Origin: Catellatospora sp. KI3
GTDB taxonomy: Bacteria; Actinomycetota; Actinomycetes; Mycobacteriales; Micromonosporaceae
DNA length: 64,000 nt
Reading direction: 5' to 3'
Assembly: GCF_029948125.1 (NCBI RefSeq)
Contig: NZ_JASAMB010000005.1
Coordinates: 124,001 to 188,000 of the forward strand
Shown here one piece after another: positions 2,291 through 26,184 of the stretch; the first letter of the stretch is position 1; every line of letters begins with the position of its first letter. A model generated the notes under the pieces. It made no database searches and had not been told where the DNA came from. It saw only the letters and a program-made list of their open reading frames with translations. The translations under genes and the position numbers were made by a program.

Positions 2291-3388
2291 TCAGGCGGCG
2301 GCCTGCTCCGGCTGGTCGACGACGAGGTTCGCGGTCAGCCTGGCGCCGATGCGCCGGGCGGCGGCCATGGCCGCCCACGCGGTCACCGCGAGCAGCTGCC
2401 CGTCGTCGGGGCGGTCACGCCGGAACTCCTCGATCACCCGGGGCGTCACCTGGTACGAGGCGAAGGCGGTGAGCATCGCCAGCCGGCCGGCCGGCTGGTC
2501 GGCCTCGGGCAGGCCCGCCACGGCGTTCTCCAGCCATACCCGGTTGGAGATGCCGGGGCCCTCGACCTCGCGCGCGTTGAGCCGGGTGAGCAGCAGCAGC
2601 CGCACCCGCTCCGGGACCTCGGCCCGGCCGCACGCGTCGAACACCTCGGCGGCCTGGGCCCACGCGGTGGCGACGTCCGGTTCGGACACGGCCCAGACCA
2701 TGTCGCCGGGCAGCGCCGCGGTCGGCAGCAGCCCGAGCGACTGCCCGGTCGCGTGGGGGCGCCGGGCGATGCCGCCCATGACCCGCGCCGCCAGCTTGAG
2801 CAGCGCGCGGCGGCCGCCGCCGGAGACGCCCGGGGGCAGCGGGGTGTCCGGCAGGAAGATGTTGACCATGCGGTTGATGTAGTGGAATGTGACGGCGGTG
2901 CCGATCATCTCCGGCGCGTGCGCGGCCGGGAACGGCGCGGGCAGCAGTTCGCCGGACAGGCCGCTGGCGCGGCCCCAGCGGGCCAGCGCGCGCAGCTGTG
3001 GGTCGGTGATCGCGTCGATGCGGTCGGCGGCCACGGCGGCGGCGTCGGGGTGGCCCCCGACCAGCCCCGACAGCGTCGAACTGTGCACGTCGACGCAGTA
3101 CGGGCAGCGGTTGGCCTGCGACACCGCCGAGGCCACCATCTCCCGGGCGGACCGGGTGGTGGCGCGGTCGACCAGCAGCGTCTCGCGCAGCACGGTCCAG
3201 CCGGCGGCCAGCACTGCGGGCAGGGGGGAGTGCAGGATCAGGGGCGGGGCGAGCATGCCGAACTCCCGTTCGACCTGCTCGTACACCTGCGCGACGAGGC
3301 CGTCCGCGGCCGCTGGGGCGACCGGGCGGACATGCTTGACATGGCTCAGCGTCGGGCGGCGGGACACCAGGGCGAGCAGTGACGCCAT
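2291..3388 (-). CDS. AhpD/carboxymuconolactone-decarboxylase-like protein, paralogue 1
   Basis: The 365-residue protein contains the AhpD-type core motif CPYCVDVHS, a redox CxxC with a downstream histidine, preceded by the helix SAREMVASAVSQAN. It is a full-length relative of the protein at 6071-7162. The two share CPYCVD-x-HS, the HY-x-x-RMVN-x-FL segment, the ASYQV region near the C-terminus and overall length. Small AhpD proteins are alkylhydroperoxidases; this fused, double-length form has no assigned activity that I know of. It ends the minus-strand unit of the enediyne locus, 79 bp downstream of the GMC oxidoreductase gene, with a hairpin between them. A redox or tailoring role on the polyene or enediyne intermediate is inference. 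Confidence 0.75.
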   Translation of the reverse strand: MASLLALVSRRPTLSHVKHVRPVAPAAADGLVAQVYEQVEREFGMLAPPLILHSPLPAVLAAGWTVLRETLLVDRATTRSAREMVASAVSQANRCPYCVDVHSSTLSGLVGGHPDAAAVAADRIDAITDPQLRALARWGRASGLSGELLPAPFPAAHAPEMIGTAVTFHYINRMVNIFLPDTPLPPGVSGGGRRALLKLAARVMGGIARRPHATGQSLGLLPTAALPGDMVWAVSEPDVATAWAQAAEVFDACGRAEVPERVRLLLLTRLNAREVEGPGISNRVWLENAVAGLPEADQPAGRLAMLTAFASYQVTPRVIEEFRRDRPDDGQLLAVTAWAAMAAARRIGARLTANLVVDQPEQAAA

Positions 3389-3420
3389 GGCGAGACCTTT
3401 CTGCTGGTGGGAATACCGAT

Positions 3421-3459
3421 GGCGCGCGGCCGCGGCGGGGTGCCGCCGCGACCGCGCGC
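3421..3459 (-). terminator. Hairpin between GMC oxidoreductase and AhpD-like genes
   Basis: The arms GGCGCGCGGCCGCGGCGG and CCGCCGCGACCGCGCGCC pair almost completely. It lies in the 79-bp gap within the minus-strand unit, so it may terminate or attenuate transcription before the AhpD-like gene at 3388. Confidence 0.6.
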
Positions 3460-3467
3460 CGGGCCGG

Positions 3468-5117
3468 TCAGCGTCCGGCGCCGACCTTGACCTTCGAGGT
3501 GCTGGCCTGGCCGGGGATCGGCGCGCCGTAGGTGCAGGACACGCCCCGCTCGTTGAGCGCCTTCACGATGCCCGGCATGGCCCGCTCGGCCAGCGCCGAG
3601 ATGGTCAGCGCCGGGTTCACGGTCAGGCCGCACGGCACCGCGGACCCGTCGGTGACGAAGATGCCGGGGTGGCCGCGCAGCTCGTGCCGGTCGTCCAGGG
3701 CGGAGGTCTCCGGGTCGTCGCCGATGCGGCACGACGACAGCGGGTGCACCGTGTACGCCCCGATCAGGTCGTTGGTCCACGGCGCCACCTTGGCGATGCC
3801 GTCGCGCTCCAGGATGTCCTTGACGTCGGCGTCGGACAGGTTCCAGCCGCGCCACGTGTTCGCCGTCGGCTTGTACGACAGCGGCCCGTGCCCCAGCATC
3901 TGCTGGGAGAAGCGGTTGGCGTTGCCCGTCTCCGGCGGGGGCCCGAACACGCCCTCGTTGTCATCCTCGGACATCGTGAAGATGGTCAGCCACGACTTCC
4001 ACTCCCGCAGCAGCTCCTTCTTGCGCGGCCCGAACCAGGTCGGGTCGCCCGGCTCCCCCGTCGCGCCGGGCACCTGAGCCAGGATGGTGCCCAGGCCGGG
4101 CGGGAAGTAGAGCTGCTCCAGCGAGTAGCGCTCGTACTCGGGCAGGTTGCCGTCGAGCTTGTCCCAGCTGGCCACGACCGGGCCGCGCCCGATCTGGTGC
4201 GCCTCGTAGGCCGTGCCGTCGCCCCGGTCCAGGCCGAGCACCTCGCGGACCCGGTCCTCGTCGAAGACGACGGTGTTCAGCCGCTCCCCGTTGCCGGAGA
4301 AGTAGCGGCCGACCGCGTGCGGCATCTTGCCCAGGTACTTCTCCGAGCGCTGCAGGATCGGCGGGGTGGCGCCGGTGCCGGCCGCCACCACCACGATCTT
4401 GGCTTCGATCACGCCCGCCTCGTGCAGGATGCGGTAGTCGGAGTCGTCGACGATGCGGTAGTGCACCCGGTAGCCGCCGTCGTCGGTGCGCTCCAGGTGC
4501 TGCACCTCGTGCAGCGGCCGGATCTGCGCCCCGTGCGACATGGCCGCGGGCAGGTAGTTGAGCAGCAGCGACTTCTTGGCGTCGAACTTGCAGCCCGACA
4601 TCATCCAGTTGCAGTTGGTGCACTGGTCGGTGTCCACGGCCGAGGGCACCGGGTTGGCGGTGCGCCCGGCGTGGTTGCACGCCGCGGCCCAGATCCCGCC
4701 GCCGTACGGCACCGTCTCCCACGGGGTCATGGTCACCGGCAGCGACTCGCTGACCCGGTCGTACCAGGGGTCGAGGGTGTCGCGGTCGATCGAGGCCGGC
4801 CACATGCGGCGGCCGATGCTGCCCTGCCGCTCGAAGATGTAGCGCGGCGCCCGCGGCATGGTCGCGAAGTACACGACGCTGCCGCCGCCGACGCAGTTGC
4901 CGGACAGGATGCTCATGCCGTCGCCGACCACGAAATCGAAGATCCGGGTGTACGACGACCCGAGCTTGAAGTCGTGGTCGAACTCCTCGGCGGCCAGCCA
5001 CGGGCCGCGCTCGAGCACGGTGACCCGTGCTCCGCCGGCCGCCAGGTGGTACGCGGCGATGGCGCCGCCGAACCCGCTGCCGATCACGACGACGTCGGTG
5101 CTCTCGATGCTGTTCAC
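3468..5117 (-). CDS. GMC family FAD oxidoreductase (cholesterol-oxidase-like), enediyne E9-type
   Basis: The 549-residue protein opens with an FAD-binding Rossmann motif (DVVVIGSGFGG at about residues 7-17) and a GNCVGGGS loop. It ends with the GMC C-terminal region (HPLSSCRIG, then GLTVNPALTISALAERAM), which carries the catalytic His and the Asn position. These enzymes oxidise alcohols or reduce and oxidise C=C bonds with FAD. The start is GTG at 5117. Its first bases overlap the TGA of the upstream gene in a GTGA junction, so the two are translationally coupled. Nine-membered enediyne clusters carry a GMC-type oxidoreductase (called E9, from memory), which fits this context. Confidence 0.85.
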   Translation of the reverse strand: MNSIESTDVVVIGSGFGGAIAAYHLAAGGARVTVLERGPWLAAEEFDHDFKLGSSYTRIFDFVVGDGMSILSGNCVGGGSVVYFATMPRAPRYIFERQGSIGRRMWPASIDRDTLDPWYDRVSESLPVTMTPWETVPYGGGIWAAACNHAGRTANPVPSAVDTDQCTNCNWMMSGCKFDAKKSLLLNYLPAAMSHGAQIRPLHEVQHLERTDDGGYRVHYRIVDDSDYRILHEAGVIEAKIVVVAAGTGATPPILQRSEKYLGKMPHAVGRYFSGNGERLNTVVFDEDRVREVLGLDRGDGTAYEAHQIGRGPVVASWDKLDGNLPEYERYSLEQLYFPPGLGTILAQVPGATGEPGDPTWFGPRKKELLREWKSWLTIFTMSEDDNEGVFGPPPETGNANRFSQQMLGHGPLSYKPTANTWRGWNLSDADVKDILERDGIAKVAPWTNDLIGAYTVHPLSSCRIGDDPETSALDDRHELRGHPGIFVTDGSAVPCGLTVNPALTISALAERAMPGIVKALNERGVSCTYGAPIPGQASTSKVKVGAGR

Positions 5118-5683
5118 GCCAGGCTCCCGGTCGAGTTGGTCTGCGGGTGGAGGTTGGCCAGCGCACGCCCGTAGGAGTAGCGCGGGAAGCGCCAGACCCC
5201 GTCGGCGTTCGGCTTGGCGTAGCCGATCGTCATCAGCCCGGGGTGGCCGGAGGCCAGCGCGTCGTGGGTGCTCATGTGCGCGGCGCTGTCGAACGCCATG
5301 TTGCTGAACAGGGCCAGCCCCACCCACAGCGCCTTCTCGGGGTGGTCGGGATGGCACAGCCGCTGCACCATGCGGGCACGGTGGTCGTAGTTCAGCGCCA
5401 CGAACGCGGGCAGCGCCTCGTCGAGGCTCAGCTCCTGCTCACCGGCGTACACCGAGGCGTGCAGGTTCAGCAGGTCGGCCAGGCCCTCCAGGGAGTGGGC
5501 GAGGCCGCCGGCGGGGTCTTCGAGCAGCGTGAGGGCACCGGCGGCGACTGCGCCTCCGCCCTCGGCGGCACCAGCGATCGCATGGTCGTCAGGCGACCGC
5601 TTAGCACCGGGGATGATCGTGTCCGCGAACGCCTCGAGCGTCATCACGCGCGACGCTCGGGGGTCGGTGGATTCGGTGTGCAC
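5114..5683 (-). CDS. DUF5987-type small partner protein of the GMC oxidoreductase, enediyne E8-like
   Basis: The 189-residue protein has the early helix TLEAFADTIIPG and a C-terminal aromatic tail (YSYGRALANLHPQ). It resembles gluconate-dehydrogenase subunit-3-like or DUF5987 proteins that accompany GMC oxidoreductases. The GTG start at 5683 has an AGGAGG ribosome site 8 bases upstream. It is first in the minus-strand unit and its stop overlaps the start of the oxidoreductase by four bases, so the two probably form a complex. In known nine-membered enediyne clusters a small protein of similar length (E8) sits beside E9; I recall this rather than derive it from the sequence. Confidence 0.7.
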   Translation of the reverse strand: MHTESTDPRASRVMTLEAFADTIIPGAKRSPDDHAIAGAAEGGGAVAAGALTLLEDPAGGLAHSLEGLADLLNLHASVYAGEQELSLDEALPAFVALNYDHRARMVQRLCHPDHPEKALWVGLALFSNMAFDSAAHMSTHDALASGHPGLMTIGYAKPNADGVWRFPRYSYGRALANLHPQTNSTGSLA

Positions 5684-6070: not shown

Positions 6071-7162
6071 ATGCTCATCGCCCGCATCGCGTCGTCAGTG
6101 GTCCAGCGCCAGGTCAAGTACGTCACCCCGGTGCCGGTGGCGGCCGCGCGAGGCGAGCTGGGCGAGGTCTACAGCCAGGTGGCGCAGGAGATGGGCCTGG
6201 TCGTGCCGCCGGTGCAGCTGCACTCCGTGGCGCCGCGGCTGGCGGCGGCGTACTGGGCGCTGATGCGCGAGCCGATGCTGCCGACCGACACCGTCGACCG
6301 CGCGGCCAAGGAGGCCGTGGCCACGGTGGTCTCGGTCGCCAACATCTGCCCCTACTGCGTGGACATGCACAGCGTCGGCATGTACGACCTGGCCACCGAG
6401 CACGACGCGGAGGCCCTGGTCGCCGACCGGGTCGAGGAGCTGGACGACCCCCGGGTGCGCGCCATCGCGGCGTGGGCCCGCACCGCCGCCCAACCGGACG
6501 ACCCGGCCGCCGGACCCGCGCCGTTCGCCGAGGCCGACCGGCCGGAGCTGGTCGGGGTGCTGGTCAGCCTGCACTACCTGACCCGCATGGTGAACGTGTT
6601 CCTGTCCAGCTTCCTGCTGCCGCCCGGTCTCGGCCCGGCCGCCCGGCGCCGGTTCAAGCGCGGCGTCAGCCGGGTGCTGCGCCCGACCCTGCGCGACCCG
6701 CGCGCCCCGGGCCGCTCGCTGCCGCTGCTGCCGCACGCGCCGCTGCCGCCGGACGCCGCCTGGGCCACGGGCAACCCGGTGATCGCGGCCGCGGTGGCGC
6801 GCTCGTACGCCGCGTTCGACGACGCCGGGCAGCGGGCGCTCTCCGCCGAGGTACGCGAGCTGGTGCAGCGGCGGCTGGACACCTGGCGCGGCGAGGAGAC
6901 CGGGCTGAGCCGCCAGTGGTGCGAGCGGCTCATCGCCGGGCTGGCCCCGGCCGACCAGGCGGCGGCGCGGCTGGCGCTGCTGACCGCGCTGGCGTCGTAC
7001 CAGGTGGACGCGGAGGTCGTGGACGAGTTCCGGGCCTGGCACTCGGGCGAGGCGAAGCTGGTGGAGGCGACCGCGTGGGCCAGTTGCGCGGCGGCCCGCC
7101 GGGTGGGTGCCTGGCATCTGCCGGCGGGCGCGACCCTGCCGTCAAGTGGCCAGACTGCTTGA
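6071..7162 (+). CDS. AhpD/carboxymuconolactone-decarboxylase-like protein, paralogue 2
   Basis: This 363-residue protein carries CPYCVDMHS, the AhpD redox motif, at about residues 95-103. It aligns along its whole length with the protein at 2291-3388. I chose the ATG at 6071, preceded by AGGGGAGG, rather than the longer upstream frame, because this start gives the same length as the paralogue and the upstream extension shows no homology. It is the first gene of the plus-strand unit that runs through pksE. Family function is peroxide reduction or decarboxylation by thiol chemistry; its reaction here is unknown. Two paralogues expressed divergently suggest a heterodimer or two successive steps. 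Confidence 0.78.
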   Translation: MLIARIASSVVQRQVKYVTPVPVAAARGELGEVYSQVAQEMGLVVPPVQLHSVAPRLAAAYWALMREPMLPTDTVDRAAKEAVATVVSVANICPYCVDMHSVGMYDLATEHDAEALVADRVEELDDPRVRAIAAWARTAAQPDDPAAGPAPFAEADRPELVGVLVSLHYLTRMVNVFLSSFLLPPGLGPAARRRFKRGVSRVLRPTLRDPRAPGRSLPLLPHAPLPPDAAWATGNPVIAAAVARSYAAFDDAGQRALSAEVRELVQRRLDTWRGEETGLSRQWCERLIAGLAPADQAAARLALLTALASYQVDAEVVDEFRAWHSGEAKLVEATAWASCAAARRVGAWHLPAGATLPSSGQTA

Positions 7163-7306
7163 TAGGCGACTCCAGAGCGCAATTTTGAAGATGTGAAAGG
7201 TGAGGCTGCCCTACCACGCTGTAGCGGTCGCCGCACGATCGTGAAGCGAGCACCACCGGGTCGCCGTCGACTGTCGGTGGTGGACTCTGTCGACAGGGGA
7301 GGGAAC

Positions 7307-7879
7307 GTGACGACCTTCGAGGCGTCGACCGGGCGCAGCCCGGCCACGACCGGCTGGCTCAACGCCGCCGGCCACCGCACCGCGCTCAACGTGTTCATGT
7401 TCGTGGTGCTGGCCCACTGGGCCGAGCACCTGGTCCAGGCGTACCAGATCTGGGTGCTGGACCGGCCGCGCCCGCAGGCCCGGGGCGTGCTCGGCCAGTT
7501 CTTCCCGTGGCTGGTCTCGTCCGAATACCTGCACTACGGGTACGCCCTGGTGATGGTCATCGGGCTGTTCCTGCTCCGCAAGGGCTTCACCGGCCGCTCG
7601 AAGACCTGGTGGCTGATCGCCTTCGGGATCCAGTTCTGGCACCACATCGAGCACCTGCTGCTGTTCATCCAGGCGCAGAGCGGCACCATGTTCTTCGGCG
7701 CGAAGGTGCCGACGAGCGTGGCGCAGCTGATCTTCCCCCGGGTGGAGCTGCACCTGTTCTACAACACGATCGTGTTCCTGCCGATGGTCGTCGCGATGTT
7801 CCTGCATCTGCGGCCGACCCCGGCGGAGCGCCGCGAGGCCGCGTGCACCTGCGCGGCACCGCTTCCCGCCGCGGCCTGA
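7307..7879 (+). CDS. Histidine-rich multipass membrane protein of unknown function
   Basis: The 190-residue protein starts at GTG 7307 after an AGGGGAGGG site. I see about four hydrophobic segments: around LNVFMFVVLAHWA, YALVMVIGLFLL, WWLIAFGIQFW and FYNTIVFLPMVVAMFL. Histidines cluster at membrane boundaries in HWAEH, YLHYGY and WHHIEH, an arrangement seen in membrane metal sites, for example di-iron hydroxylases or haem ligands. The C-terminus has a small CTCAA element. Its stop overlaps the ATG of the CopC-like gene by one base, so the two are coupled. I do not recognise a named family. A membrane redox or metal-handling role is inference. Confidence 0.7.
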   Translation: MTTFEASTGRSPATTGWLNAAGHRTALNVFMFVVLAHWAEHLVQAYQIWVLDRPRPQARGVLGQFFPWLVSSEYLHYGYALVMVIGLFLLRKGFTGRSKTWWLIAFGIQFWHHIEHLLLFIQAQSGTMFFGAKVPTSVAQLIFPRVELHLFYNTIVFLPMVVAMFLHLRPTPAERREAACTCAAPLPAAA

Positions 7880-8460
7880 TGGCGACTGAGACCGACGTGC
7901 GCGACCCGGGCGAAACGGTGCCCGGGTCGCGCCGCCTCTGGACCCGGCTGGGCACCGTGCTGATGGTGCTCGTGGTCGGCGGCACGGCCGTGCTGTCGCT
8001 GCTGACCGACACCGAACCGCCCGCCCTGAGCACGGTCAGCCCGGCGGACGGCGCGGTGGTCGGCAGCGCTCCGACGGAGGTCGAGCTGACCTTCGCGGGC
8101 ACGTTCGAACCCCGCGAGGTACACGTGACCGTGGCGGACGCGGCCGGCCGGACCGTCGGCGACCGGCCCGAGGTCGACGGCGACGTCGTCGGGGTGCCGG
8201 TCGTGCTCGGTGCGGACGGCGGCTACCTGGTCGCCTACCACATCGTGCTGGCCGACGGGCAGGTGCTGGCGGGGCAGACCGGCTTCCGGTACACCCGCGG
8301 CGCCGTCGCCAGCGCGCCGCCGCGGACCGCGCCGCCGGCGGCGTCGGGGCACTCCCACGGCGGCGATGATCCGCTCAGCATCGGACTGACCTTCCTGGCC
8401 GCCGTGCTGGTCGCGGTCATGGTGATGATGATGGTCCGGCGCCCCCGGCCGCGGGCCTGA
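7879..8460 (+). CDS. CopC-domain protein with two membrane anchors and altered copper ligands
   Basis: This 193-residue protein has an N-terminal membrane segment (about residues 22-42), a CopC/YobA beta-sandwich (PPALSTVSPADGAVV through GQTGFRYTRG), a His-containing linker (SGHSHGGDD) and a C-terminal membrane segment. CopC proteins bind copper outside the membrane, with one ligand at the mature N-terminus and another His in a DGHxxxG motif. Here the corresponding motif reads DGQVLAG and the N-terminal His is absent, so classical Cu(II) binding is unlikely. It is coupled to the histidine-rich membrane protein upstream. A chaperone or cofactor role for that protein is inference. Confidence 0.75.
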   Translation: MATETDVRDPGETVPGSRRLWTRLGTVLMVLVVGGTAVLSLLTDTEPPALSTVSPADGAVVGSAPTEVELTFAGTFEPREVHVTVADAAGRTVGDRPEVDGDVVGVPVVLGADGGYLVAYHIVLADGQVLAGQTGFRYTRGAVASAPPRTAPPAASGHSHGGDDPLSIGLTFLAAVLVAVMVMMMVRRPRPRA

Positions 8461-8585
8461 CCCCTCGCGCACTGCGCACATCCGCGTAAGCGCACATCTG
8501 GAGACGCTTCGCCGGTCGGCCGCGTACCACCATGAGGACAGTCCGCCGTCCTGGCGGAGTGTGCTTCTTCAGGTACGGAGGAACC

Positions 8586-9584
8586 ATGGCAACCACCCTC
8601 GGCTCACTGCGCAACCTGATGATGACGCCGTCGCTGGCCGACGTGAGCTTCGCCAAGCGCGGGTTCCCGATCGTGCCCACCGCCGCGACCCGGCGGCTGG
8701 AGGCGATCCCGCAGTCGGTGATCTGCGGGTTCGAGTGGGGCATCGACTCGCGGACCCTGTGGGAGGTCGAGCGGCGGCTGGAGCTGGTCGAGCCGGAGAT
8801 GCGCGGCTTCGCCTACGAGGGCGCGACGATGGCGTTCACGGTCCGCGACGCGATGGCCGGCGGTCGCGGCACCCGCACCCGCGACCTGCTGATGGGTCCG
8901 GGCCAGCCGCACATCTTCCTCACCTACATCGGCATCGGCTTCGCGATGGCGCGCCTGCCGCGGCCGCTGTGGAAGAACGTGATCCCCGACCTCACCGGCA
9001 CGCCGTACCACCCCACCATGAGCTGGCTGGCCGTGGACGGGCTCGGCTTCGACCGGGCGTACTTCGACACCCGGGACTGGGTCGACAACCGCCGCCGCCC
9101 CAAGCCCTACCCGTTCGCCGGGCACCCCGGCTACTTCGCGCGCGCCTGGGACCAGGGCGTGGGCCGGGCGCTGTGGTTCATCCACGGCGGCGTGGTGCGC
9201 AACGTGGCGGCGGGCGTCGGCCGGTTCGAGTCCGACCGCCACGCCGACCTCTGGAGCGGGGTGGGCCTGGCGGCCACGTTCGCCGGCGGCTCGACCCCGG
9301 AGGGCCTGGCCGAGCTGCGCGAGCTGTCCGGGGCGTACGCGCCGGACCTGGCCCAGGGCAGCGTGTTCGCGGCCAAGGCCCGCTCGTACTCGGGGTTCGC
9401 GCCGCTCCACAGCGAGCAGGCGGTGTCCGCGCTGGCCGGGATCTCGCTCGACGAGGCGGCCGAGTTCGCCGACGAGGTCGCCGTCGGCGGCTTCCAGTCG
9501 TCGGCCGCGACGCCCGACTACGAGGTCTGGCGCAGCCGGGTCCGGGCCCGGTTCGTGTCCGCGAAAGCCGTGCGGACGCACTGA
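8586..9584 (+). CDS. DUF1702 (UnbL-type) enediyne biosynthesis protein A
   Basis: The 332-residue protein starts at an ATG preceded by GGAGG at 8577-8581. It shows the DUF1702 signature: RGFAYEGATMAFTVRDAM near residue 75, IGIGFAMARLPRPLW, WLAVDGLGFDRAYFDT, QGVGRALWFIHGG and the final YEVWRSRVRARF. Proteins of this family (UnbL in the original enediyne cassette naming) accompany PksE in essentially all enediyne clusters and are required for turning the linear polyene into the enediyne core, but no reaction is established. It is a paralogue of the next gene. The stop is followed by a strong hairpin. Confidence 0.88.
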   Translation: MATTLGSLRNLMMTPSLADVSFAKRGFPIVPTAATRRLEAIPQSVICGFEWGIDSRTLWEVERRLELVEPEMRGFAYEGATMAFTVRDAMAGGRGTRTRDLLMGPGQPHIFLTYIGIGFAMARLPRPLWKNVIPDLTGTPYHPTMSWLAVDGLGFDRAYFDTRDWVDNRRRPKPYPFAGHPGYFARAWDQGVGRALWFIHGGVVRNVAAGVGRFESDRHADLWSGVGLAATFAGGSTPEGLAELRELSGAYAPDLAQGSVFAAKARSYSGFAPLHSEQAVSALAGISLDEAAEFADEVAVGGFQSSAATPDYEVWRSRVRARFVSAKAVRTH

Positions 9585-9601
9585 CGTTACAGGTGTGGCG
9601 A

Positions 9602-9636
9602 ACGATTCCCGCTCCCTTTCGGGGAGCGGGAATCGT
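9602..9636 (+). terminator. 15-bp perfect hairpin between the two DUF1702 genes
   Basis: The arms ACGATTCCCGCTCCC (9602-9616) and GGGAGCGGGAATCGT (9622-9636) are exact complements with a 5-base loop. There is no T-tract. It could be a partial terminator or a processing site that lowers or protects one side of the transcript; the next gene has its own 135-bp leader. Confidence 0.65.
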
Positions 9637-9771
9637 CGCTCGCCATTCCTTCCGGAATGCGGTCCGGAGTCAATTCACCGGCTGGGCAAACGCGAAGAAG
9701 AATTGTTCCGCCAGCCCTGCGACGATCGCAGGTACATCGCCGAATCCAATGACGATATTGGGGGCTCTGCC

Positions 9772-10743
9772 ATGAGCGTATACCGCGCGCTGCGGCGCCG
9801 TATCCTCACGCCCGACGTTAAGGCCACCCGGCTCGACGTACGCGGATTCCACGTCAAAGACGAGGCGTCGCGCGACATGCTCGAGACCGTCGGCCGCAGC
9901 TTCCTCACCGGTTACGCGTACGCCGCCGAGGCGCGCCGCCCGCTCGACGCCGAGCTGCCGCTGGAGGAGCTGCCGACCAGGTACAAGGGCTTCGCGTACG
10001 AGGGCGCCGGGATGGGCTTCGCGATCCGCGACGGCCTGCCCATCGGCGGCGGCAAGCTGGTTGAGGACTTCCTCGACGGCAAGGCCGACGACCACGTCTA
10101 CATGATCTACGTGGGGGTCGGCTGGGCCATGGCCCGGCTGCCGCGCTTCCGCTGGAAGACGCTGTACGCGGCCGACCCGCTGCTGAAGTGGCTGATCCTG
10201 GACGGCTACGGCTTCCACCAGGCCTACTTCCAGACCGACAAGTACGTGTACGACCAGTACGTGGAGGAGAACTTCCCCTGGCCGGGCGGCGAGCACAACT
10301 GGTACGCCAACCGCGTCATCGACCAGGGGATCGGCCGTGCCTGCTGGTTCGTCGGCGGGACGGAGGCCGAGGTGGCCGCGGGGCTGATCGACCGGTTCCC
10401 GGTCGAGCGCCGCGCCGACATGTACGCCGGCATGGGCCTGGCCGCCACCTACGCGGGCGGCGCCGACCCGAAGGAGCTGGAAGAGCTGTGGCAGCACGCC
10501 GTCGACTACCGGCGCGAGCTCGCCCAGGGTGCCGCCTTCGCCGCGGGCGCGCGCGAGCGCGCCAGGCTGACCGTCCCGCACAACGAGGTCGCCACGAAGA
10601 TCTTCTGCGACATGTCGCCGCAGGAGGCGCAGCTGGTCACCATCGAGGCGCTGATGGACCTGCCGATGGACGGCCACCTGCCCATCTACGAGGTGTGGCG
10701 CCAGCGCATCGCCGACCGGTTCGTGGCCACCGGCCACTGCTGA
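9772..10743 (+). CDS. DUF1702 (UnbL-type) enediyne biosynthesis protein B
   Basis: The 323-residue protein carries the same landmarks as its neighbour A: YKGFAYEGAGMGFAIRDGL, VGVGWAMARLPRFRW, WLILDGYGFHQAYFQT, QGIGRACWFVGG and the closing YEVWRQRIADRF. I placed the start at ATG 9772, with GGGGG a few bases upstream, because the first homologous residues follow directly. Family members act with PksE in making the enediyne core; the chemistry is unassigned. The two tandem copies diverge strongly outside the motifs, so they probably have separate roles, possibly as subunits of one complex. Copy B lies 70 bp upstream of pksE. Confidence 0.88.
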   Translation: MSVYRALRRRILTPDVKATRLDVRGFHVKDEASRDMLETVGRSFLTGYAYAAEARRPLDAELPLEELPTRYKGFAYEGAGMGFAIRDGLPIGGGKLVEDFLDGKADDHVYMIYVGVGWAMARLPRFRWKTLYAADPLLKWLILDGYGFHQAYFQTDKYVYDQYVEENFPWPGGEHNWYANRVIDQGIGRACWFVGGTEAEVAAGLIDRFPVERRADMYAGMGLAATYAGGADPKELEELWQHAVDYRRELAQGAAFAAGARERARLTVPHNEVATKIFCDMSPQEAQLVTIEALMDLPMDGHLPIYEVWRQRIADRFVATGHC

Positions 10744-10813
10744 GTCCTTCCCTTCCCTCCTGGTGTCCGGGTCGCGTGGTATGCGCGCCCGCTGGATGAA
10801 AGGCTGTTTCCGC

Positions 10814-16591: not shown

Positions 16592-16592
16592 G

Positions 16593-17061: not shown

Positions 17062-17598
17062 GTGGACGTCCAGCAAACCCCGCCGCTGCTGGTGGCGGAT
17101 CCGAAGGCGCTACGCCGGGCCTTCGGCGCGTACGCCACCGGGGTCACGGTGGTCACGGTCGGCGGGGACACCCCGCACGGCATGACGGCGAACTCGTTCA
17201 CCACGGTCTCGCTGGACCCGCCGCTGGTCCTCATCTGCGTCGGCCACGAGGCGATCATGCACGGCGTCCTCGCGGCGACCAACCGGTTCGCCGTCTCCGT
17301 CCTCGGCTCCGGCCAGGAGGCGGTGGCCAGGTACTTCGCCGACCGGAACCGGCCCATGGGCAAGGAGCAGTTCGACGCCGTCGACTGGACCCCGGGCCGG
17401 TTCTCCGGCGCCCCCCTGATCATCGGGGCGCTGGCCCACTTCGAGTGCGAGGTGCGGGCCCGCTACGACGGCGGCGACCACACGATCTTCCTCAGCGAAC
17501 TGCTCTCGGTCGAACGCGCGGAGGACGACGACGCGCTGCTGTTCCTGCACGGTCGATTCCATCAGATTCACCACGAGCGAAGCGACGTGACGAGATGA
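17062..17598 (+). CDS. Flavin reductase (HpaC/E6-type)
   Basis: The 178-residue protein has the flavin reductase-like split-barrel motifs: FGAYATGVTVVTV at the start, HGMTANSFTTVSLDPPLVLICV with the flavin-binding TANSFTTVSLDPP, and a C-terminal GRFHQI. Such enzymes supply reduced FAD or FMN to a two-component monooxygenase. The start is GTG 17062 after AGGAGAGG. The stop overlaps the P450 start in an ATGA junction. Flavin reductases of this type (E6 in C-1027 and neocarzinostatin nomenclature) occur in nine-membered enediyne loci. No flavin-dependent monooxygenase partner is visible in this window. Confidence 0.9.
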   Translation: MDVQQTPPLLVADPKALRRAFGAYATGVTVVTVGGDTPHGMTANSFTTVSLDPPLVLICVGHEAIMHGVLAATNRFAVSVLGSGQEAVARYFADRNRPMGKEQFDAVDWTPGRFSGAPLIIGALAHFECEVRARYDGGDHTIFLSELLSVERAEDDDALLFLHGRFHQIHHERSDVTR

Positions 17599-18950: not shown

Positions 18951-18962
18951 ACCCCGCCGATC

Positions 18963-19168: not shown

Positions 19169-19978
19169 TCAGGCCACGCTCGTCTGCTGCTGCTGCTGCT
19201 CGCGCTCGGCGACCAGCTTGAGTGCCGCCATGCGCACGTCCAGCAGGGCGAGCAGGACCGGCGGGTCCAGGTCGGAGATCGCCTTGAGCTGGAGTTCGGC
19301 GTCGTCGATCACCATGCCGCGCCGCATGGTGATCGGGCCGAGCGAGCCGACGCCCAGTTCGTTGCCGGCGCCGGCGCCGGGCTCACCGGTCACCCGGGCC
19401 GGGTCGGAGGAGACCGAGTGGGCCAGCAGGAACCACTCGCCCGGGGGCACCTTCTCCAGGGTGAACGGGCCGGGCTGGTCGAGGATCGCGCAGCTGACCG
19501 GCCGGGCCTCGGGGATCCGGTCGCGGAACAGGCCGACGAAGGTCAGCTGCGGCTCGTCGGCCGGGTACGGCCGGATGACGCCCTTGACGGTGCCGAAGGC
19601 CCACTCCGGCCCGCTGACACTGGTCTCGGGGTGCACCGCGGGGGCGTAGCCGCCCAGGCGGCGGTAGGCCGTCGGGGACAGGCCCACGCTGCGGGTGAAG
19701 CGGGAGCTGAACGTGCCGATGCTGGTGTAGCCGACCTGCAGGCTGATGTCGGCGACGTTGCTCTGCGTCGAGACCAGCAGTTGTTTGGCCTGCTGCAGCC
19801 GCAGCGCGGACAGGAAGCGACCGGGCGAGATCCCGGTGACCCGTTGGAATATGCGCGAGAAATGGAACTTGCTGAACATCGCGACCCGTGCCATGTCGTC
19901 GATGGTCAACTGTTGCCCGAGATTTTCGCGCATGGTAGCGATCACACGTTCGACGGCCCTTGTCGTGGTCTTGTCCAT
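19169..19978 (-). CDS. AraC family regulator with C-terminal poly-Gln tail
   Basis: The 269-residue protein is an unusual AraC type with the DNA-binding domain first. Two helix-turn-helix motifs lie in about residues 10-110 (LTIDDMARVAMFSKFHFSRIF, then VADISLQVGYTSIGTFSSRFTRSVG). A C-terminal domain of about 150 residues follows and may sense a ligand. The protein ends with a run of five glutamines encoded by CTG repeats. I chose the ATG at 19978, preceded by GGGAG; the longer frame upstream is not conserved-looking. It lies between the pksE unit and the MerR/UnbV unit, divergent from MerR, so it is the likely pathway regulator. A perfect palindrome sits 90-115 bp upstream. Confidence 0.88.
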   Translation of the reverse strand: MDKTTTRAVERVIATMRENLGQQLTIDDMARVAMFSKFHFSRIFQRVTGISPGRFLSALRLQQAKQLLVSTQSNVADISLQVGYTSIGTFSSRFTRSVGLSPTAYRRLGGYAPAVHPETSVSGPEWAFGTVKGVIRPYPADEPQLTFVGLFRDRIPEARPVSCAILDQPGPFTLEKVPPGEWFLLAHSVSSDPARVTGEPGAGAGNELGVGSLGPITMRRGMVIDDAELQLKAISDLDPPVLLALLDVRMAALKLVAEREQQQQQTSVA

Positions 19979-20067
19979 AGCGTCTCCCGAATCGAGCTGC
20001 GCCCCTCGCGGGGGGCGATAGGCGTCACCGCCGCCGGCATCGCAGCAAGTTCCGACAGTCACGGCCG

Positions 20068-20093
20068 TATCCGGATCCGTTAGGATCCGGATA
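20068..20093. promoter_or_regulatory. Perfect 11-4-11 palindrome upstream of the AraC gene
   Basis: The arms TATCCGGATCC and GGATCCGGATA are exact complements around GTTA. It lies 90 bp upstream of the AraC start. This size and symmetry fit an operator for a dimeric regulator, perhaps autoregulation by the AraC protein or binding by the MerR protein, though a transcript hairpin is possible. Confidence 0.6.
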
Positions 20094-20406
20094 GGAGTCG
20101 TTAACCTGCCGGAAACAGCTGCTCCATGGATGCGAAAGCGAATTCGCTCCCGGCCCCTCGCCCTCGGGTCGCGCGCCCCGGGGACATTCGATGCGGTCTC
20201 CCGCATCCATGAATGCCAGCGACAGGGATCGATGTTAGGAGGTCTCAAAGGGATCAGCAATACCAACGGCGGACGCTCCTCGGCCGGACGGACGGGTGCG
20301 GCGCTCCATTCGTCGATGATAATGGCTTCAAGCTGCGCGTACCTCGGCAGGGTGGTGCCCTGCGGGGAAACTGAGCAATATTATGGAAAGGCGAAGTCGG
20401 CGAGTT

Positions 20407-20418
20407 CCGCTATCCATA
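20407..20418 (+). promoter_or_regulatory. Candidate cluster-specific regulatory motif CCGCTATCCATA (copy B)
   Basis: It matches 11 of 12 bases of the motif at 5899-5910. It lies about 265 bp upstream of the MerR start in the AraC-MerR intergenic region. Confidence 0.42.
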
Positions 20419-20682
20419 TCGGCTACGCAGCGTCATCCGCACTCAGGGCGCCCGCGCCCGCGCGACGCGGTACGCGTCGTTTCGGTTGCCGTGTGGAACG
20501 CCTCTGTCGTGAAGTGGTCACACCGCGAGCGAGGGTCGGTGCCGGTGATCACCGGCGGGGCGTCGCGGGAGCGGTTCCGCACCTGGCACTTCTTCGCCAA
20601 AAACGACATTTCGACTGTTGCGGCGAGTGATCGCTATGTGCCAACATGCAAGCATTCCCATCAACTACACCGATGGAGTTCG

Positions 20683-21315
20683 ATGAAGATTTCGAATCTC
20701 AGCAGGCGGAGCGGTGTGTCGGTGGCGACGATTAAGTTTTATCTGCGCGAGCACCTGTTGCCTCCGGGCGTACCGACGGCGAGGAACCAGGCCGAGTACG
20801 ACGAGACTCACGTCGCCCGGCTGCGACTGATCCGGGTGCTTACCGGGATGGGCATGATGAGCCTGGCCTCGGTGCGCGAAGTGCTGGCCGCCCTCGACGA
20901 CAACTGCATGTCGCCGCACGGGCTGGCCAAGGTCGTCAACAACGCACTCTCCGCCGAACATCCGGCGCGCGCCGACGCGCCGGCCGACACCTCGGCCAAT
21001 GGCCAGGTCGACCGCTTCCTGGCCGACCTGGGCTGGCGCGTCGATCCCAACGCGCCCGGCCGGACGACGCTGGCCCAGGTCCTGGTCGCGCTGCGCGACC
21101 TCGGCTGGGACTGCGGCGCTGACATCTTCGCCCCATGCGCCGACGCGGCCGAGCGACTGGCCGTGCGGGAGCTGGACTCCCTGCCCACCGACGGCGCGGC
21201 GACCGCGGTCGCCCGCACCGTCCTGCTCGAGGTCGCCTTCGCGGTCATGCGCCGGATGGCGTACGAGCACTACCTTGCCATCCGGGCGTACGGCTCTGCC
21301 GCACCCGGCTGCTGA
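20683..21315 (+). CDS. MerR family transcriptional regulator
   Basis: The 210-residue protein has a MerR DNA-binding domain at residues 1-70 (MKISNLSRRSGVSVATIKFY, then LREHLLPPG and YDETHVARLRLIRVL). The effector domain is longer than in metal-type MerR proteins, runs to the C-terminus and has only a few scattered Cys. The absence of a paired-Cys metal loop suggests a small-molecule effector, as in MerR regulators of drug efflux. The ATG at 20683 follows GGAG. It sits between AraC and the UnbV-UnbU-MFS unit in the same direction as the latter, so control of the exporter or self-resistance is a reasonable inference. Confidence 0.88.
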   Translation: MKISNLSRRSGVSVATIKFYLREHLLPPGVPTARNQAEYDETHVARLRLIRVLTGMGMMSLASVREVLAALDDNCMSPHGLAKVVNNALSAEHPARADAPADTSANGQVDRFLADLGWRVDPNAPGRTTLAQVLVALRDLGWDCGADIFAPCADAAERLAVRELDSLPTDGAATAVARTVLLEVAFAVMRRMAYEHYLAIRAYGSAAPGC

Positions 21316-21817: not shown

Positions 21818-23797
21818 ATGCCAACGAACGAGGTCGGCCTGCTGCGCCGACTGACACCTGTCGTATTCGTGATCGCGCTGGCGGTGACGCTGTTCGCGGT
21901 GGCTCAGCTGCCCGAGGCGTCCGCGGCGGACAAGGCCGCGATGGCCTCCCGCTACCGCTTCACCGAGCTTCCCATCGCGCTGCCGCCGAACCTGCCGCAG
22001 CGTGACGTGCGCACGGTGAACCCGGAGTACGAGCACATCAAGTCCTGGATCTCGTCGGTCGGCGCGGCCATCGCCGTCAACGACCTGGACGGCGGCGGCA
22101 AGCCCGACGACCTGTGCCTGGTCGACACGCGCAGCGACAGCGCGATCGTCACCCCGGCGCCCGGCACCGGCGGCGCCTACCAGCCGTTCGTGCTGGACAC
22201 CGCCCCGCTGCCGTACAACGACACCATGGCGCCCATGGGGTGTGTGCCGGGTGACTACAACCTCGACGGCTGGACCGACCTGCTGGTCTACTACTGGGGC
22301 CGCACGCCGGTGCTGTTCCTGCACAAGCCGGCCGCCTCGCTGCTGACGCGGGACACCTTCGTGGCCACCGAGCTCATCCAGGCCGGGGTGTACAACGACA
22401 AGGCGTACCACGGGCAGCTGTGGAACACCAACGCGGTGGCCATCGCGGACTTCGACGGTGACGGCAAGCCCGACATCGGGGTGTTCAACTACTTCCCCGA
22501 CACCGGTGTGCTCGACCCGGTCGGCAACAAGAACGTGACGATGAACCACTCCATGTCCCGGGCCCAGAACGCCGGCGGCGCGCACGTGCTGCGGTGGAAG
22601 GCGAAGGCCGCGGGCAAGAACGGCGGACCGGCGACGGTCACGTTCGAGGAGCAGCGCGGCGCGATCGACCCGAAGTGTGCCACCGGCTGGACGCTGGGAT
22701 CGGCCTCGGCCGACCTGGACGGCGACCTGCTGCCGGAGCTGTACCTGGCCAACGACTTCGGCAACGACCGCTTCTTCCACAACGTGTCGACCCCCGGGAA
22801 CATCAAGTTCGCGCTGGCCGAGGGTGAGCACGGCCCGTTCACGCCCAAGTCGCTGGTGATGGGGCACGACTCGTTCAAGGGCATGGGCATCGAGTTCGGC
22901 GACCTGTACGGCACCGGCCGCTTCGACGCCTTCGTCAGCAACATCACGCACTCCTGGGGCATCGAGGAGAGCAACTTCGTCTGGCGCAACACCGCCGCGA
23001 GCCCGGACGAGGCGAAGGCGGAGCTGAGCAGGGGCGTGGCCCCGTTCGAGAACGAGGCGAGCGAGACCAACCTGGCCTGGGTCGGCTGGGGCTGGGACGC
23101 CAAGATGGCGGACTTCGACAACAGCGGCAACCAGGTCGTCGTGCAGACCGCCGGCTTCGTCAAGGGCACGATCAACCGCTGGAACTGGCTCCAGGAGCTG
23201 GCCATGAGCAACGACCTCATGCTGCAGGAGCCGGCGATGTGGCCCAAGGCGATGCCCGGTGACGATATCGCCGGCACCGACCACATGGCGTTCTGGGCGC
23301 CGGAGGGCAACGGCCGCTACACCGACCTCAGCCCGCAGCTGGGCATGGACGCGCAGATCCCGAGCCGGGGCGTGGCAGTGGCGGACACCAACGCCGACGG
23401 CAGCCAGGACTTCGCCGTGGCCCGCCAGTGGGGCCCGCCAGCGTACTACCGCAACGACCGCAAGGGCAATGGCGACTTCATCGGCCTGCGCCTGCACCGC
23501 CCGGTCGACGGCGCCAAGGGCGACGCGCTGCGCACTCCGGCGTACGGCGCGATGGTGAAGATCACCACCGCGGACGGCAGGTCGCAGCTGGCGCAGCTCG
23601 ACGGCGGCGGCGGCCACTCCGGCAAGCGCAGCTTCGACATCTTCTTCGGCCTGGGCAACCAGGGTGCCAAGCCGGTCTCGGCCGAGATCTGCTGGCGCGA
23701 CCTGTCCGGCGCCGTCCACATGCAGAAGGTCGACCTGACCGTCGGCTGGCACGACTTCATGCTCACGACTCAGGCTCAGGAGGTGGCGGCGAAATGA
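21818..23797 (+). CDS. unbV: UnbV, secreted or membrane-anchored beta-propeller protein of the enediyne cassette
   Basis: The 659-residue protein has an N-terminal signal or anchor (about residues 12-30, ending EASAAD). FG-GAP/VCBS repeats follow, with calcium-binding-like loops such as DLDGGGKPDDL, DYNLDGWTDLL, DFDGDGKPDIG, DLDGDLLPELY and DTNADGSQDF, and then a C-terminal ASPIC/UnbV domain near GGGGHSGKRSFDIFFGLG. UnbV homologues occur in almost every enediyne locus and are needed for core formation, with no known reaction. The protein should lie outside the membrane. Start: ATG with GAGGGG upstream. The stop overlaps the unbU start in an ATGA junction. Confidence 0.93.
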   Translation: MPTNEVGLLRRLTPVVFVIALAVTLFAVAQLPEASAADKAAMASRYRFTELPIALPPNLPQRDVRTVNPEYEHIKSWISSVGAAIAVNDLDGGGKPDDLCLVDTRSDSAIVTPAPGTGGAYQPFVLDTAPLPYNDTMAPMGCVPGDYNLDGWTDLLVYYWGRTPVLFLHKPAASLLTRDTFVATELIQAGVYNDKAYHGQLWNTNAVAIADFDGDGKPDIGVFNYFPDTGVLDPVGNKNVTMNHSMSRAQNAGGAHVLRWKAKAAGKNGGPATVTFEEQRGAIDPKCATGWTLGSASADLDGDLLPELYLANDFGNDRFFHNVSTPGNIKFALAEGEHGPFTPKSLVMGHDSFKGMGIEFGDLYGTGRFDAFVSNITHSWGIEESNFVWRNTAASPDEAKAELSRGVAPFENEASETNLAWVGWGWDAKMADFDNSGNQVVVQTAGFVKGTINRWNWLQELAMSNDLMLQEPAMWPKAMPGDDIAGTDHMAFWAPEGNGRYTDLSPQLGMDAQIPSRGVAVADTNADGSQDFAVARQWGPPAYYRNDRKGNGDFIGLRLHRPVDGAKGDALRTPAYGAMVKITTADGRSQLAQLDGGGGHSGKRSFDIFFGLGNQGAKPVSAEICWRDLSGAVHMQKVDLTVGWHDFMLTTQAQEVAAK

Positions 23798-24825
23798 CCC
23801 ACGCAGAACGCGTCAGCACGACCGGCATCGGCATCAAACCCCCCGCGGCGGCGACCGTACGGGTGGAGCCGACCAGGGTGGCCGCGGCCGGCCGGATGGC
23901 CGCCCCGCCCCGGGTGGACAAGAAGGACCCGCGGTACATCGCGCTGCGCAACTTCGCCATCTCCATGAGCATCTTCAACATCCTCGGGTACTGGCTGTTC
24001 GGCTTCGAGCAGCCGTGGACCTGGCCGTTCATCGCGCTGGCGGTCGGCTACGCCACCGAGTTCACGGCCGAGACCATCGCCGCCTGGGCCTACAAGCGGC
24101 GCCCGGAGTACGCCGGCAACGGCATGTGGGGCGTGTACACGTTCCTGCTGCCCACCCACATCACGGCGCTGGCGGCGAACATGCTGCTCTACGCCAACGA
24201 CCTCTTCTGGCCCATCGCGTTCGCGATCGTCATCGCGGTCGGGCAGAAGTACGTCCTGCGCGCCCCGATCAAGGGCCGCATGCGCCACTTCATGAACCCG
24301 TCCAACCTCGGCATCACCGCCGCGCTGCTGGCCTTCAGCTGGGTCAACATCGCACCGCCGTACCACTTCACCGAGCACGTGCCGGACGCCATCCGGATCG
24401 TGATCCCCTTCGTCATCCTCACCTCGGGCACGGTGCTCAACGCGCTGCTGACCAAGAAGGTGCCGCTGATCCTGGGCTGGGTGGGCGGCTTCGTGATCCA
24501 GGCCCTGATCCGGACGTGGATCTGGGATGTGGCGCTGTGGGCGGCGCTCATCCCGATGACGGGCGTGGCGTTCGTGCTGTTCACGAACTACATGATCACC
24601 GACCCGGGCACCACGCCGTCGAAGGGCTGGATGCAGTTCATGTTCGGCTCCAGCGTCGCCACGGTGTACGGCATCCTGATGGTGTTCAACGTGGTCTACA
24701 CGCTCTTCTTCGCGGTGACCATCGTCTGCGCGGTCCGGGGCCTGTTCTGGTGGTACAAGCACCTGCGCGAACGCGGCCAGCAGCAGGCGCAGCCGCGTAC
24801 GGTGCCCGTACCGGCGACAGTCTGA
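23794..24825 (+). CDS. unbU: UnbU, integral membrane protein of the enediyne cassette
   Basis: The 343-residue protein has a 50-residue soluble N-terminus and then about eight hydrophobic segments. Features include GYATEFTAETIAAWAYKRRPEY, MRHFMNPSNLGI and FTNYMITDPGTTPS. The last two resemble the NQR2/RnfD flavoprotein family, which carries covalent FMN at an SGAT-like Thr; DPGTTPSK near residue 270 is the matching position. UnbU homologues are cassette members of unknown reaction, and an electron-transfer role across the membrane is a reasonable inference from the RnfD likeness. It overlaps unbV by four bases and is followed by a hairpin. Confidence 0.92.
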   Translation: MTHAERVSTTGIGIKPPAAATVRVEPTRVAAAGRMAAPPRVDKKDPRYIALRNFAISMSIFNILGYWLFGFEQPWTWPFIALAVGYATEFTAETIAAWAYKRRPEYAGNGMWGVYTFLLPTHITALAANMLLYANDLFWPIAFAIVIAVGQKYVLRAPIKGRMRHFMNPSNLGITAALLAFSWVNIAPPYHFTEHVPDAIRIVIPFVILTSGTVLNALLTKKVPLILGWVGGFVIQALIRTWIWDVALWAALIPMTGVAFVLFTNYMITDPGTTPSKGWMQFMFGSSVATVYGILMVFNVVYTLFFAVTIVCAVRGLFWWYKHLRERGQQQAQPRTVPVPATV

Positions 24826-24830
24826 CGACC

Positions 24831-24878
24831 TGCGGGCGGGACCGGTCGCGGCTGCGGCCGCTGCGGGTCCCGCCCGCA
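24831..24878 (+). terminator. Hairpin after unbU
   Basis: Arms TGCGGGCGGGACC and GGTCCCGCCCGCA are exact complements around a 22-base loop. It lies between unbU and the MFS gene and may separate or attenuate them. Confidence 0.65.
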
Positions 24879-24963
24879 ACTGCGCAACTGACAAGATGCC
24901 CGACTACATCGATAGATGGAAACCTCCGGCTACAGAACCGTTACAGCCAGGGGGGAACCAGCC

Positions 24964-26184
24964 ATGGTCGCCGACGTCCGTACCGACAGCACGGCCCCAC
25001 CGGTTCCGAAGCTGCGCGCCGCAGCGGGGTTCGTGTTCTTCTTCCTGTTCGGAACGCTGTTCGCGGCGCTGGGGGCGCTGCTGCCCGCGCTGCGGGGCGA
25101 GTTCGAGCTGAGCGCTTCCCGGGGTGGCGGCCTGGTCAGCGTCTTCCAGCTCGGCGCGCTGGCATCGATGGTCTACTGCGGGCTGTTCGCCCGTCGCGTC
25201 AACGGCAGGCGGACCATGTCGCTGCTGGTGCTGGTCGCCGCGGCCGCCGCGGCGGCGCTGGCGCTGGCGCCGTCCTGGCCGGCCGTGCTCGCCGCGGCCG
25301 GATTCGGCGGCCTCGGCTTCGGCGGCCTGATGCTCTACCTCAACACCGCCTTCTCCGCCGGCTTCGGCCGGCGCGGCGCGCTGATGCTGAACCTGTTCAA
25401 CACCGTGTTCATGGCCGGCTCCATCGTCGGGCCGCTGGCCGTCGGGGCCACCGCCGGGTACGAGCGCCACGTGCTGCTCGGGGTCGCGGTGCTGGTGCTG
25501 CTGTGCTGGCCGGCCTGCGGGCTGGCGCCACCGGCGGCGGTGCCCTCCGCCGGTGGGCAGGGCCCGGTGCACGAGCCCTCGCGCAGTTCGCTGCCGGTGG
25601 TCGCGGTGTTCACGGTGGCCGGCCTGCTCTATGGCGCGGTCGAGACCGCGGTGGGCACCTGGGAGACCTCCCACCTGGTCGCGATCGGGTTCTCCGCGCC
25701 GGTCGCCGCGTCCCTGACCGCGCTGTTCTGGGCCGGTCACGCCGTGGGCCGGCTCACCGTCTCGTTCCTGCGGCCCCGGCGGTCCCCGGCGAAGCTCGTC
25801 ATGGGCTGCACCCTGCTGGCCGCGGGCGCGCTGGCGGGGGCGTCGTCGCCGCTCGCGGCACCGTACGCGTACGCCCTCGCGGGTGTGCTGCTCGGCCCGG
25901 TCTTCCCGACGCTGCTGGCCTGGCTGGCGACGGTCACCCCCGCGACCCAGTCGACCCGGGCGGTGCTGATGACCGGGCTCATGATCGGGGGCGCGGGGGC
26001 GCCCGCCCTGGTCGGTGCCAGCGTCGGCGGCTCGTCTGGTGCGACCGTTCCGCTGGTGCTGTGCCTGCTCGCGGTGGCGGCCGCCGTCGCCGCGATGGTG
26101 GCGGCGCGGGTCGCCGCGGTGCACGGCCGCCTGTCGGCGGCCCTGGCGGCCGAACTGCTGATGGTCCCGCGCACCACGGGCTGA
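24964..26184 (+). CDS. MFS transporter, probable product efflux/self-resistance
   Basis: This 406-residue protein has about 12 hydrophobic segments in two halves with a short central loop (PSAGGQGPVHEPSRSS). An LFARRVNGRR stretch after TM2 corresponds to the MFS loop motif, and a second arginine-rich loop (FLRPRRSPAK) sits in the equivalent place of the C-terminal half. I chose the ATG at 24964 with AGGGGGGAA before it. It follows UnbU in the same direction. Being the only exporter in the locus, it is the likely route for product export; no other resistance gene such as an apoprotein is visible. A small-molecule facilitator unrelated to the product cannot be excluded. Confidence 0.85.
   Translation: MVADVRTDSTAPPVPKLRAAAGFVFFFLFGTLFAALGALLPALRGEFELSASRGGGLVSVFQLGALASMVYCGLFARRVNGRRTMSLLVLVAAAAAAALALAPSWPAVLAAAGFGGLGFGGLMLYLNTAFSAGFGRRGALMLNLFNTVFMAGSIVGPLAVGATAGYERHVLLGVAVLVLLCWPACGLAPPAAVPSAGGQGPVHEPSRSSLPVVAVFTVAGLLYGAVETAVGTWETSHLVAIGFSAPVAASLTALFWAGHAVGRLTVSFLRPRRSPAKLVMGCTLLAAGALAGASSPLAAPYAYALAGVLLGPVFPTLLAWLATVTPATQSTRAVLMTGLMIGGAGAPALVGASVGGSSGATVPLVLCLLAVAAAVAAMVAARVAAVHGRLSAALAAELLMVPRTTG

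Follow-up and report, generated by a model that had tools for sequence, protein, structure and literature searches.

The window carries an enediyne cassette

A gene cluster for an enediyne, a natural product of very high potency that cuts DNA, probably extends across the left edge of a 64,000-nucleotide stretch of the genome of the soil bacterium Catellatospora sp. KI3 (contig NZ_JASAMB010000005.1, G000:C45:124001-188000 in our numbering; genome of 8.2 Mb in 96 contigs). We call this whole stretch the window; 60 kb was fetched on each side of it, and negative coordinates lie to its left. Gene starts are those of our own gene calling and may be inaccurate. The locus is a genuine enediyne gene cluster, of a kind already known; it probably spans about 65 kb, from -38.8 kb to 26.2 kb, and is probably of the nine-membered type. 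A first-pass annotation of the window had read positions 2291 to 26184 as a compact, core-only locus without apoprotein or decorating enzymes.

The enediyne polyketide synthase, PksE (10763-16591, + strand), has by Pfam the domains KS (19-427), AT (634-851), KR (1214-1393) and DH (1473-1738), an order called characteristic of enediyne synthases (PMC7692728). The best match of its AT stretch in the PDB is DynE8, and the ACP and PPTase parts are seen as motifs only. The earlier statement that PksE has all its catalytic residues holds as far as the domains go; the catalytic motifs were spotted by eye only. Two DUF1702 proteins of the E2/E3 family (8532-9584 and 9595-10743, both +; 430-453 bits in Pfam) precede PksE, and it is followed by a 4HBT-type thioesterase (E10; 16578-17036, +) and an E6-like flavin reductase (17062-17598, +), both with Pfam and PDB matches, and by an E7-like cytochrome P450 (17595-18950, +; Pfam). 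UnbV (E4; 21818-23797, +) is an FG-GAP/ASPIC protein by Pfam, and UnbU (E5; 23794-24825, +), which has no Pfam family, was recognised by its relatives in 106 of 116 enediyne neighbourhoods. With the E10 thioesterase, a DUF1702 protein (E3), UnbV and UnbU all near PksE, the cassette is confirmed as first annotated. The assignment of E numbers to individual genes should be taken as our assumption.

The 116 neighbourhoods comprise 80 named PksE loci and 36 others chosen by UnbU or by genus, some loci being present twice. Among 28 genomes of the family outside the genus with an UnbU match of at least about 65%, 27 neighbourhoods were fetched (G124 was left out), some of them cut by contig ends, and four further neighbourhoods with UnbU at no more than 55% were added. 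As a side observation, one genome (G070) has two UnbU genes 17 kb apart (C1:1315819 and 1333091), 65% and 74% identical to ours.

The remaining genes of this part include a GMC oxidoreductase (3468-5117, -; Pfam; relatives in 84 of the 116 neighbourhoods) and a DUF5987 protein (5114-5683, -; PF19449, 286 bits), E9-like and E8-like in the naming of the first-pass annotation; together with the flavin reductase and the P450, this set is indeed present. There are also two CMD/AhpD-like proteins (2291-3388, -, and 6071-7162, +), an AraC-type regulator (19169-20266, -), a MerR-type regulator (20383-21315, +) and an MFS exporter (24964-26184, +), all recognised by Pfam. An unnamed His/Glu-rich membrane protein (7307-7879, +), a near-constant companion of UnbU, is discussed separately below. 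Adjoining it is a CopC-domain protein with two hydrophobic segments (7843-8460, +; Pfam), which has relatives in 20 of the 116 neighbourhoods and hints at copper.

The right boundary of the cluster is position 26184, as first annotated, because the genes from 26258 on are a flank common to two sister genomes, G009 (Catellatospora tritici) and G008, in the same order.

Aryl, sugar and tailoring genes lie to the left of the window

The left boundary, which had been placed at 2291, was not confirmed. A gene for a TIGR03084 metal-binding protein (maleylpyruvate isomerase-like; 491-1285, -; above the model's cut-off) likely belongs to the cluster, judging from relatives in 62 of the 116 neighbourhoods, and the window edge cuts a gene for a membrane protein with an acyltransferase domain, whose C-terminal end occupies 1-302 and which as a whole runs from -1650 to 302 (+). 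Further genes continue to about -39 kb.

Farthest left is a gene for an aryl-AMP ligase of the AMP-binding type (-38820 to -37078, -), with 2,3-dihydroxybenzoate-AMP ligase as its best PDB match and salicylate-AMP ligase next. Divergent from it is an iterative polyketide synthase (PKS) of 1758 amino acids (aa) with the order KS-AT-DH-KR-ACP (-36903 to -31627, +), followed by a thioesterase (-31532 to -30843, +). We call the synthase aromatic-type because of its domain order, the adjoining ligase and the accompanying genes; our reading of its motifs in this sense is presumptive. In a plasmid collection it had only general type I PKS matches, at no more than 35% identity among the best 12 of 289 records. 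Between the synthase and the sugar genes lies a DUF2795 gene (-30745 to -30446) that belongs to the chromosomal flank shared with the sister genomes. The sugar genes comprise a dTDP-glucose 4,6-dehydratase (-30403 to -29420, -), RmlA (-29380 to -28502, +) and an RfbH-like pyridoxal phosphate enzyme (-25055 to -23751, -), all three above their NCBIfam cut-offs, with an MFS protein (-26609 to -25152, +) among them. Two glycosyltransferases (-23727 to -22579, -, and -21402 to -20140, +) have an EryCIII-like Pfam domain and score below the TIGR04516 cut-off, one of them just below.

A P450 (-19280 to -18066, +), a ferredoxin and a short-chain dehydrogenase/reductase (-17839 to -17099, +) come next. 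Closer to the core lie three SnoaL-like proteins (-9190 to -7743, +), the first of which is SgcJ-like (best PDB match SgcJ, 148 bits), a second GMC oxidoreductase (-7629 to -6055, +), an HsaA-like monooxygenase (-6024 to -4834, +; below the cut-off of the HsaA model) and a monooxygenase of the FAD type (-3403 to -2033, -).

A second iterative PKS, an aryl ligase, nucleotide-sugar genes and a glycosyltransferase are thus all found near the core, and with aryl, sugar and tailoring genes up to 39 kb to the left, the claim of a core without decorating enzymes is not supported here. Peripheral genes just beyond the edges were what the first-pass annotation had itself named as speaking against a bare core, and they lie just to the left; no apoprotein gene is among them. 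The window most likely starts in mid-cluster, and the core-only look of this genome would then be an artefact of its edge. We therefore withdraw the idea of an unadorned enediyne for this genome, which saves others a wrong lead. At about 65 kb the cluster is also not unusually compact, though it lies below the 80-120 kb given as a frequent size of enediyne clusters (PMC5181780).

Three sister genomes carry versions of different length at one site

PksE occurs in 6 of the 11 genomes of the genus: our own, G009 (95% identity), G008 (93%), C. vulcania (G010, 76%), C. coxensis (G003, 77%) and C. methionotrophica (G004, 76%). Two further genomes of the genus have partial PKS matches only, at 36-37%. 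In G008, the same chromosomal site holds just the part that begins at 2291 and ends with the MFS exporter gene, 25.2 kb in all, with 84 bp to the left flank gene and an open PksE frame. A core-only cluster, unsupported in our genome, is therefore what G008 has at this locus. No iterative PKS of the kind described above was found in G008 at E 1e-60, the best 6 of 28 candidates being scored; other moiety genes elsewhere in that genome were not searched for. The version in G009 measures 33.6 kb and adds, among others, the SnoaL-like triplet, the GMC oxidoreductase, the two monooxygenases and the TIGR03084 gene, and our genome carries the aryl and sugar block on top of this, making 65 kb.

Such strong differences in gene content among sister genomes might suggest that the locus is a decaying remnant. 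Against this, the frames of the cassette are open, and the ratio of nonsynonymous to synonymous substitution rates (dN/dS) is 0.02-0.58 for the genes called between 2291 and 24825 in all three genome pairs, the maximum belonging to the flavin reductase in the pair G009-G008; decay is thus extremely improbable. Flank genes gave 0.16-0.24. The MFS gene at 24964-26184 diverges much faster than its neighbours (dN/dS 0.66-0.73 and 58% identity in comparison with G008), which looks as if the exporter might have served another compound.

Versions of 25, 34 and 65 kb around a near-identical core, at one chromosomal site in three close Catellatospora genomes, form a natural series for studying the product of a bare core and the gain or loss of decorations. 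A related case has been described in Salinispora pacifica, where three strains keep the sporolide core and are without 45 kb of nonribosomal peptide synthetase genes; neither sporolide nor an identifiable derivative was found in them (PMC8609351).

The left block and the core probably form one pathway

We consider that the left block and the core belong to one decorated enediyne pathway, and put the probability of this reading, based on gene content and linkage, at roughly 80%. Support comes from another genome, G189, in which 12 of the left-hand genes, as well as the gene at 491-1285, have relatives that are contiguous with the core in a span of about 55 kb, at 54-74% identity: the ligase (63%), the iterative PKS (65%), RmlB (66%), RmlA (54%), the P450 (55%), the three SnoaL-like proteins (74, 58 and 62%), the GMC oxidoreductase (70%), the two monooxygenases (67 and 64%) and the acyltransferase (60%). 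The association also extends across genera. The iterative PKS occurs in 16 of 200 genomes sampled from the family, and UnbU is present in 15 of these 16 as compared with 57 of the other 184 (Fisher p 9e-7); the sample was taken to be identical in the two scans, as the genome handles agree. Both genes lie on the same contig, at most 80 kb apart, in our genome and in 8 of the 15 others with the synthase. Gene content was fetched for 11 of these 15 (all but G065, G116, G118 and G169), and the ligase adjoins the synthase in 10 of the 11, that is in all 10 that have UnbU; the exception, G088, has the synthase without UnbU. The contigs of G048 are too short to judge linkage.

According to the mechanism we propose, PksE and its thioesterase would make a polyene, which the DUF1702, UnbV, UnbU, flavin-dependent and P450 proteins would convert into the enediyne core. 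The iterative PKS may make a benzoate- or naphthoate-type acid and the ligase may activate it; the activated aryl acid and a deoxysugar would then be joined to the core, and the MFS proteins would export the product. The pathway would use no carrier protein of the neocarzinostatin type. In neocarzinostatin, maduropeptin and calicheamicin, the aromatic moiety is described as the product of a bacterial iterative type I PKS (PMC2636887).

A number of observations weigh against a single pathway. Even in G189, the RfbH-like enzyme and the thioesterase have no close relative and the glycosyltransferase match is just 32%. Four genomes (G065, G116, G118 and G169) have the synthase and UnbU unlinked, and in G040 the aryl PKS block, accompanied by SnoaL-like and tailoring genes, does not share a contig with the core (stretches C1:850001-890000 and C2:940001-980000). 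Closer to home, the aryl and sugar genes are absent at the same site in G009 and G008, and with the best 6 candidates per genome scored, the iterative PKS did not appear at E 1e-60 in any of the other five genomes of the genus that have PksE. Moreover, the chromosomal DUF2795 gene sits within the left block, and for 8 of 12 genes called between -22.3 and -9.4 kb the enediyne stretches compared contain no relative. The sister genomes, the chromosomal gene, the separate contigs of G040 and these eight genes could all be accounted for if the left block were a cluster of its own that had come to lie next to the enediyne genes. The enediyne pathway would then consist of the core and a few tailoring genes, which is close to the view of the first-pass annotation. 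We regard this as unlikely, since an independent left cluster leaves unexplained why the synthase, the ligase, two sugar genes and tailoring genes are contiguous with the core in G189, and why the synthase and UnbU associate across genera. At the junctions of the inserted left block, no shared repeat was found except one inverted match of 11 bases.

The core is probably of the nine-membered kind

In the PDB the thioesterase comes closest to the ACP-polyene thioesterase 4i4j (246 bits), which we take to be SgcE10, followed by CalE7 (221), two other thioesterases (134-137) and DynE7 (125). The flavin reductase is nearest to 4r82/4hx6, presumably SgcE6. Among the 80 named loci, the PksE proteins of the C-1027 producers are 65-66% identical to ours. 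In a tree of PksE proteins our PksE groups with the other Catellatospora sequences inside a Micromonosporaceae clade of 51 rows (SH-aLRT 97), to which Phytohabitans flavus (L166) and Salinispora also belong; the C-1027 producers form a separate clade. This tree was built from 112 PksE rows of our own gene calls, with several loci present twice under G and L names, with G189 absent and with no ten-membered reference under its own name. It had three outgroups; one of them, the iterative PKS of our genome, was placed among the PksE rows, with a very long branch. A separate alignment held 10 PksE sequences: that of the window, that of one genus mate and 8 others out of 28.

P. flavus has been grouped with nine-membered enediynes, and a P. 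suffuscus PksE placed nearer to calicheamicin (PMC7692728). P. suffuscus carries two PksE proteins, L179 near ours in the tree and L192 far from it. We take the one in that paper to be L192, by positions estimated from locus tags only, and regard the support drawn from P. flavus as moderate. A published criterion for nine-membered clusters is the presence of E2 and the absence of R3 (PMC5181780); two DUF1702 proteins were found, and they were not separated at the threshold given there for E2.

It could be argued that the cluster makes a ten-membered enediyne, as CalE7 is the second-best match of the thioesterase and L179, which groups near our PksE, comes from the very species for which a PksE near that of calicheamicin was reported (PMC7692728). 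However, there are two DUF1702 paralogues, the SgcE10-like protein is the best thioesterase match, and our PksE shares a clade with P. flavus, which that source places with nine-membered enediynes. A ten-membered product is thus very improbable, and the genes support the earlier view of an enediyne-type, nine-membered-like cluster, even with its PksE standing apart from those of the C-1027 producers.

No apoprotein gene is found on the contig

A search with PF00960 gave four matches in the genome, none of them on contig C45, so that the claim of an apoprotein-free locus is upheld for the contig. The single strong match (G000:C3:26879-27202; L035 1411-1998) might have been an unlinked apoprotein, a reading that we reject because it is a sortase-type surface protein of 195 aa with, by eye, a signal peptide and an LAKTG-type anchor, and because PF00960 is present regardless of PksE: it occurs in 10 of the 11 genomes of the genus, including 4 of the 5 without PksE. 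As a control, 10 genomes were searched in the same way. A strong PF00960 frame of 153-175 aa was found in G200, G201 and G202 (two C-1027-type genomes and CB02261) and a weak match in G040, with none in G189, G027, G100, G203, G204 or G205; G027 and G204 are apparently one and the same Asanoa genome. For CB02366 and CB02261 an apoprotein gene has been reported (PMC5181780). The lack of one is common: 7 of 21 predicted nine-membered clusters had it, according to the same source. A phmmer search with the C3 protein found no apoprotein in the 2668 called genes of the 116 neighbourhoods. We give this result no weight, because the named loci mostly extend just 10 kb from PksE and, as a positive control, the search recovered no known apoprotein.

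A His/Glu-rich membrane protein accompanies UnbU

The protein encoded at 7307-7879 has nine invariant His (23, 37, 41, 76, 112, 113, 116, 149 and 167) and four invariant Glu residues (40, 73, 115 and 147) in 21 aligned sequences. It had no significant sequence match in Pfam, NCBIfam or the PDB, and Foldseek with its structural model (pLDDT 75, pTM 0.70) returned no match under E 0.001; one relative has a sub-threshold match to DUF6008 (E 0.009). In the 200 family genomes it occurs in 72, as does UnbU, and both are present in 71 (Fisher p 3e-52), with G108 having the His-rich protein without UnbU and G180, which we take to be Salinispora tropica, having UnbU without the His-rich protein. The latter case means that the protein is not needed by every enediyne pathway. 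The two genes lie at most 60 kb apart in 60 of the 71 genomes, 67-78 kb apart in 2 and 0.7-1.8 Mb apart in 4, and are on different contigs in 5. Among 394 genomes of the class, our own included, the His-rich protein was found in 18, UnbU in 21 and both in 17; the fragmented G212 has the former alone, and G299, G435, G480 and G595 the latter alone. In Streptomyces globisporus JCM 4378 the protein is 64% identical to ours.

Across the genomes sampled, this conserved His/Glu-rich protein thus follows the enediyne producers with hardly an exception. In a comparison of ten known clusters, no conservation beyond the five-gene cassette was noted (PMC5181780). We recognised no paper naming this protein in the literature covered, which leaves out most subscription journals, and one may exist. 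The genes sgcE1 and sgcM were considered as its counterparts and ruled out, as both are described as regulator-like (PMC2657911). Judging from its residues and distribution, we tentatively suggest that it could be an overlooked, near-obligatory metalloprotein of enediyne producers, either an oxidase or desaturase in core formation or a self-protection factor, although we think this less probable than not. Were it so, the five-gene cassette would be joined by a sixth near-universal gene, one that is retained even at a distance of 0.7-1.8 Mb, and the protein could open the question of how the core is finished or tolerated.

Comparison with known systems

The neocarzinostatin and maduropeptin clusters have an aryl ligase, deoxysugar genes and a glycosyltransferase, as does the present one. 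They also have, beside the enediyne cassette, another iterative PKS that supplies an aromatic acid (PMC2636887). Unlike them, our locus has no apoprotein gene found on its contig, it has three tandem SnoaL-like genes, and its host is a Catellatospora. With the C-1027 cluster (Streptomyces sp. CB02366 and S. globisporus) it shares a PksE at 65-66% identity, a thioesterase nearest to 4i4j, a flavin reductase nearest to 4r82/4hx6, an SgcJ-like protein and the His-rich protein. In contrast to our locus, the C-1027 genomes carry a PF00960 frame of 153 aa, their PksE falls in a separate clade, and their peripheral genes differ. Finally, the Salinispora sporolide cluster belongs to the same enediyne core family and likewise has sister strains with and without a periphery (PMC8609351), the periphery itself being different from the one described here.

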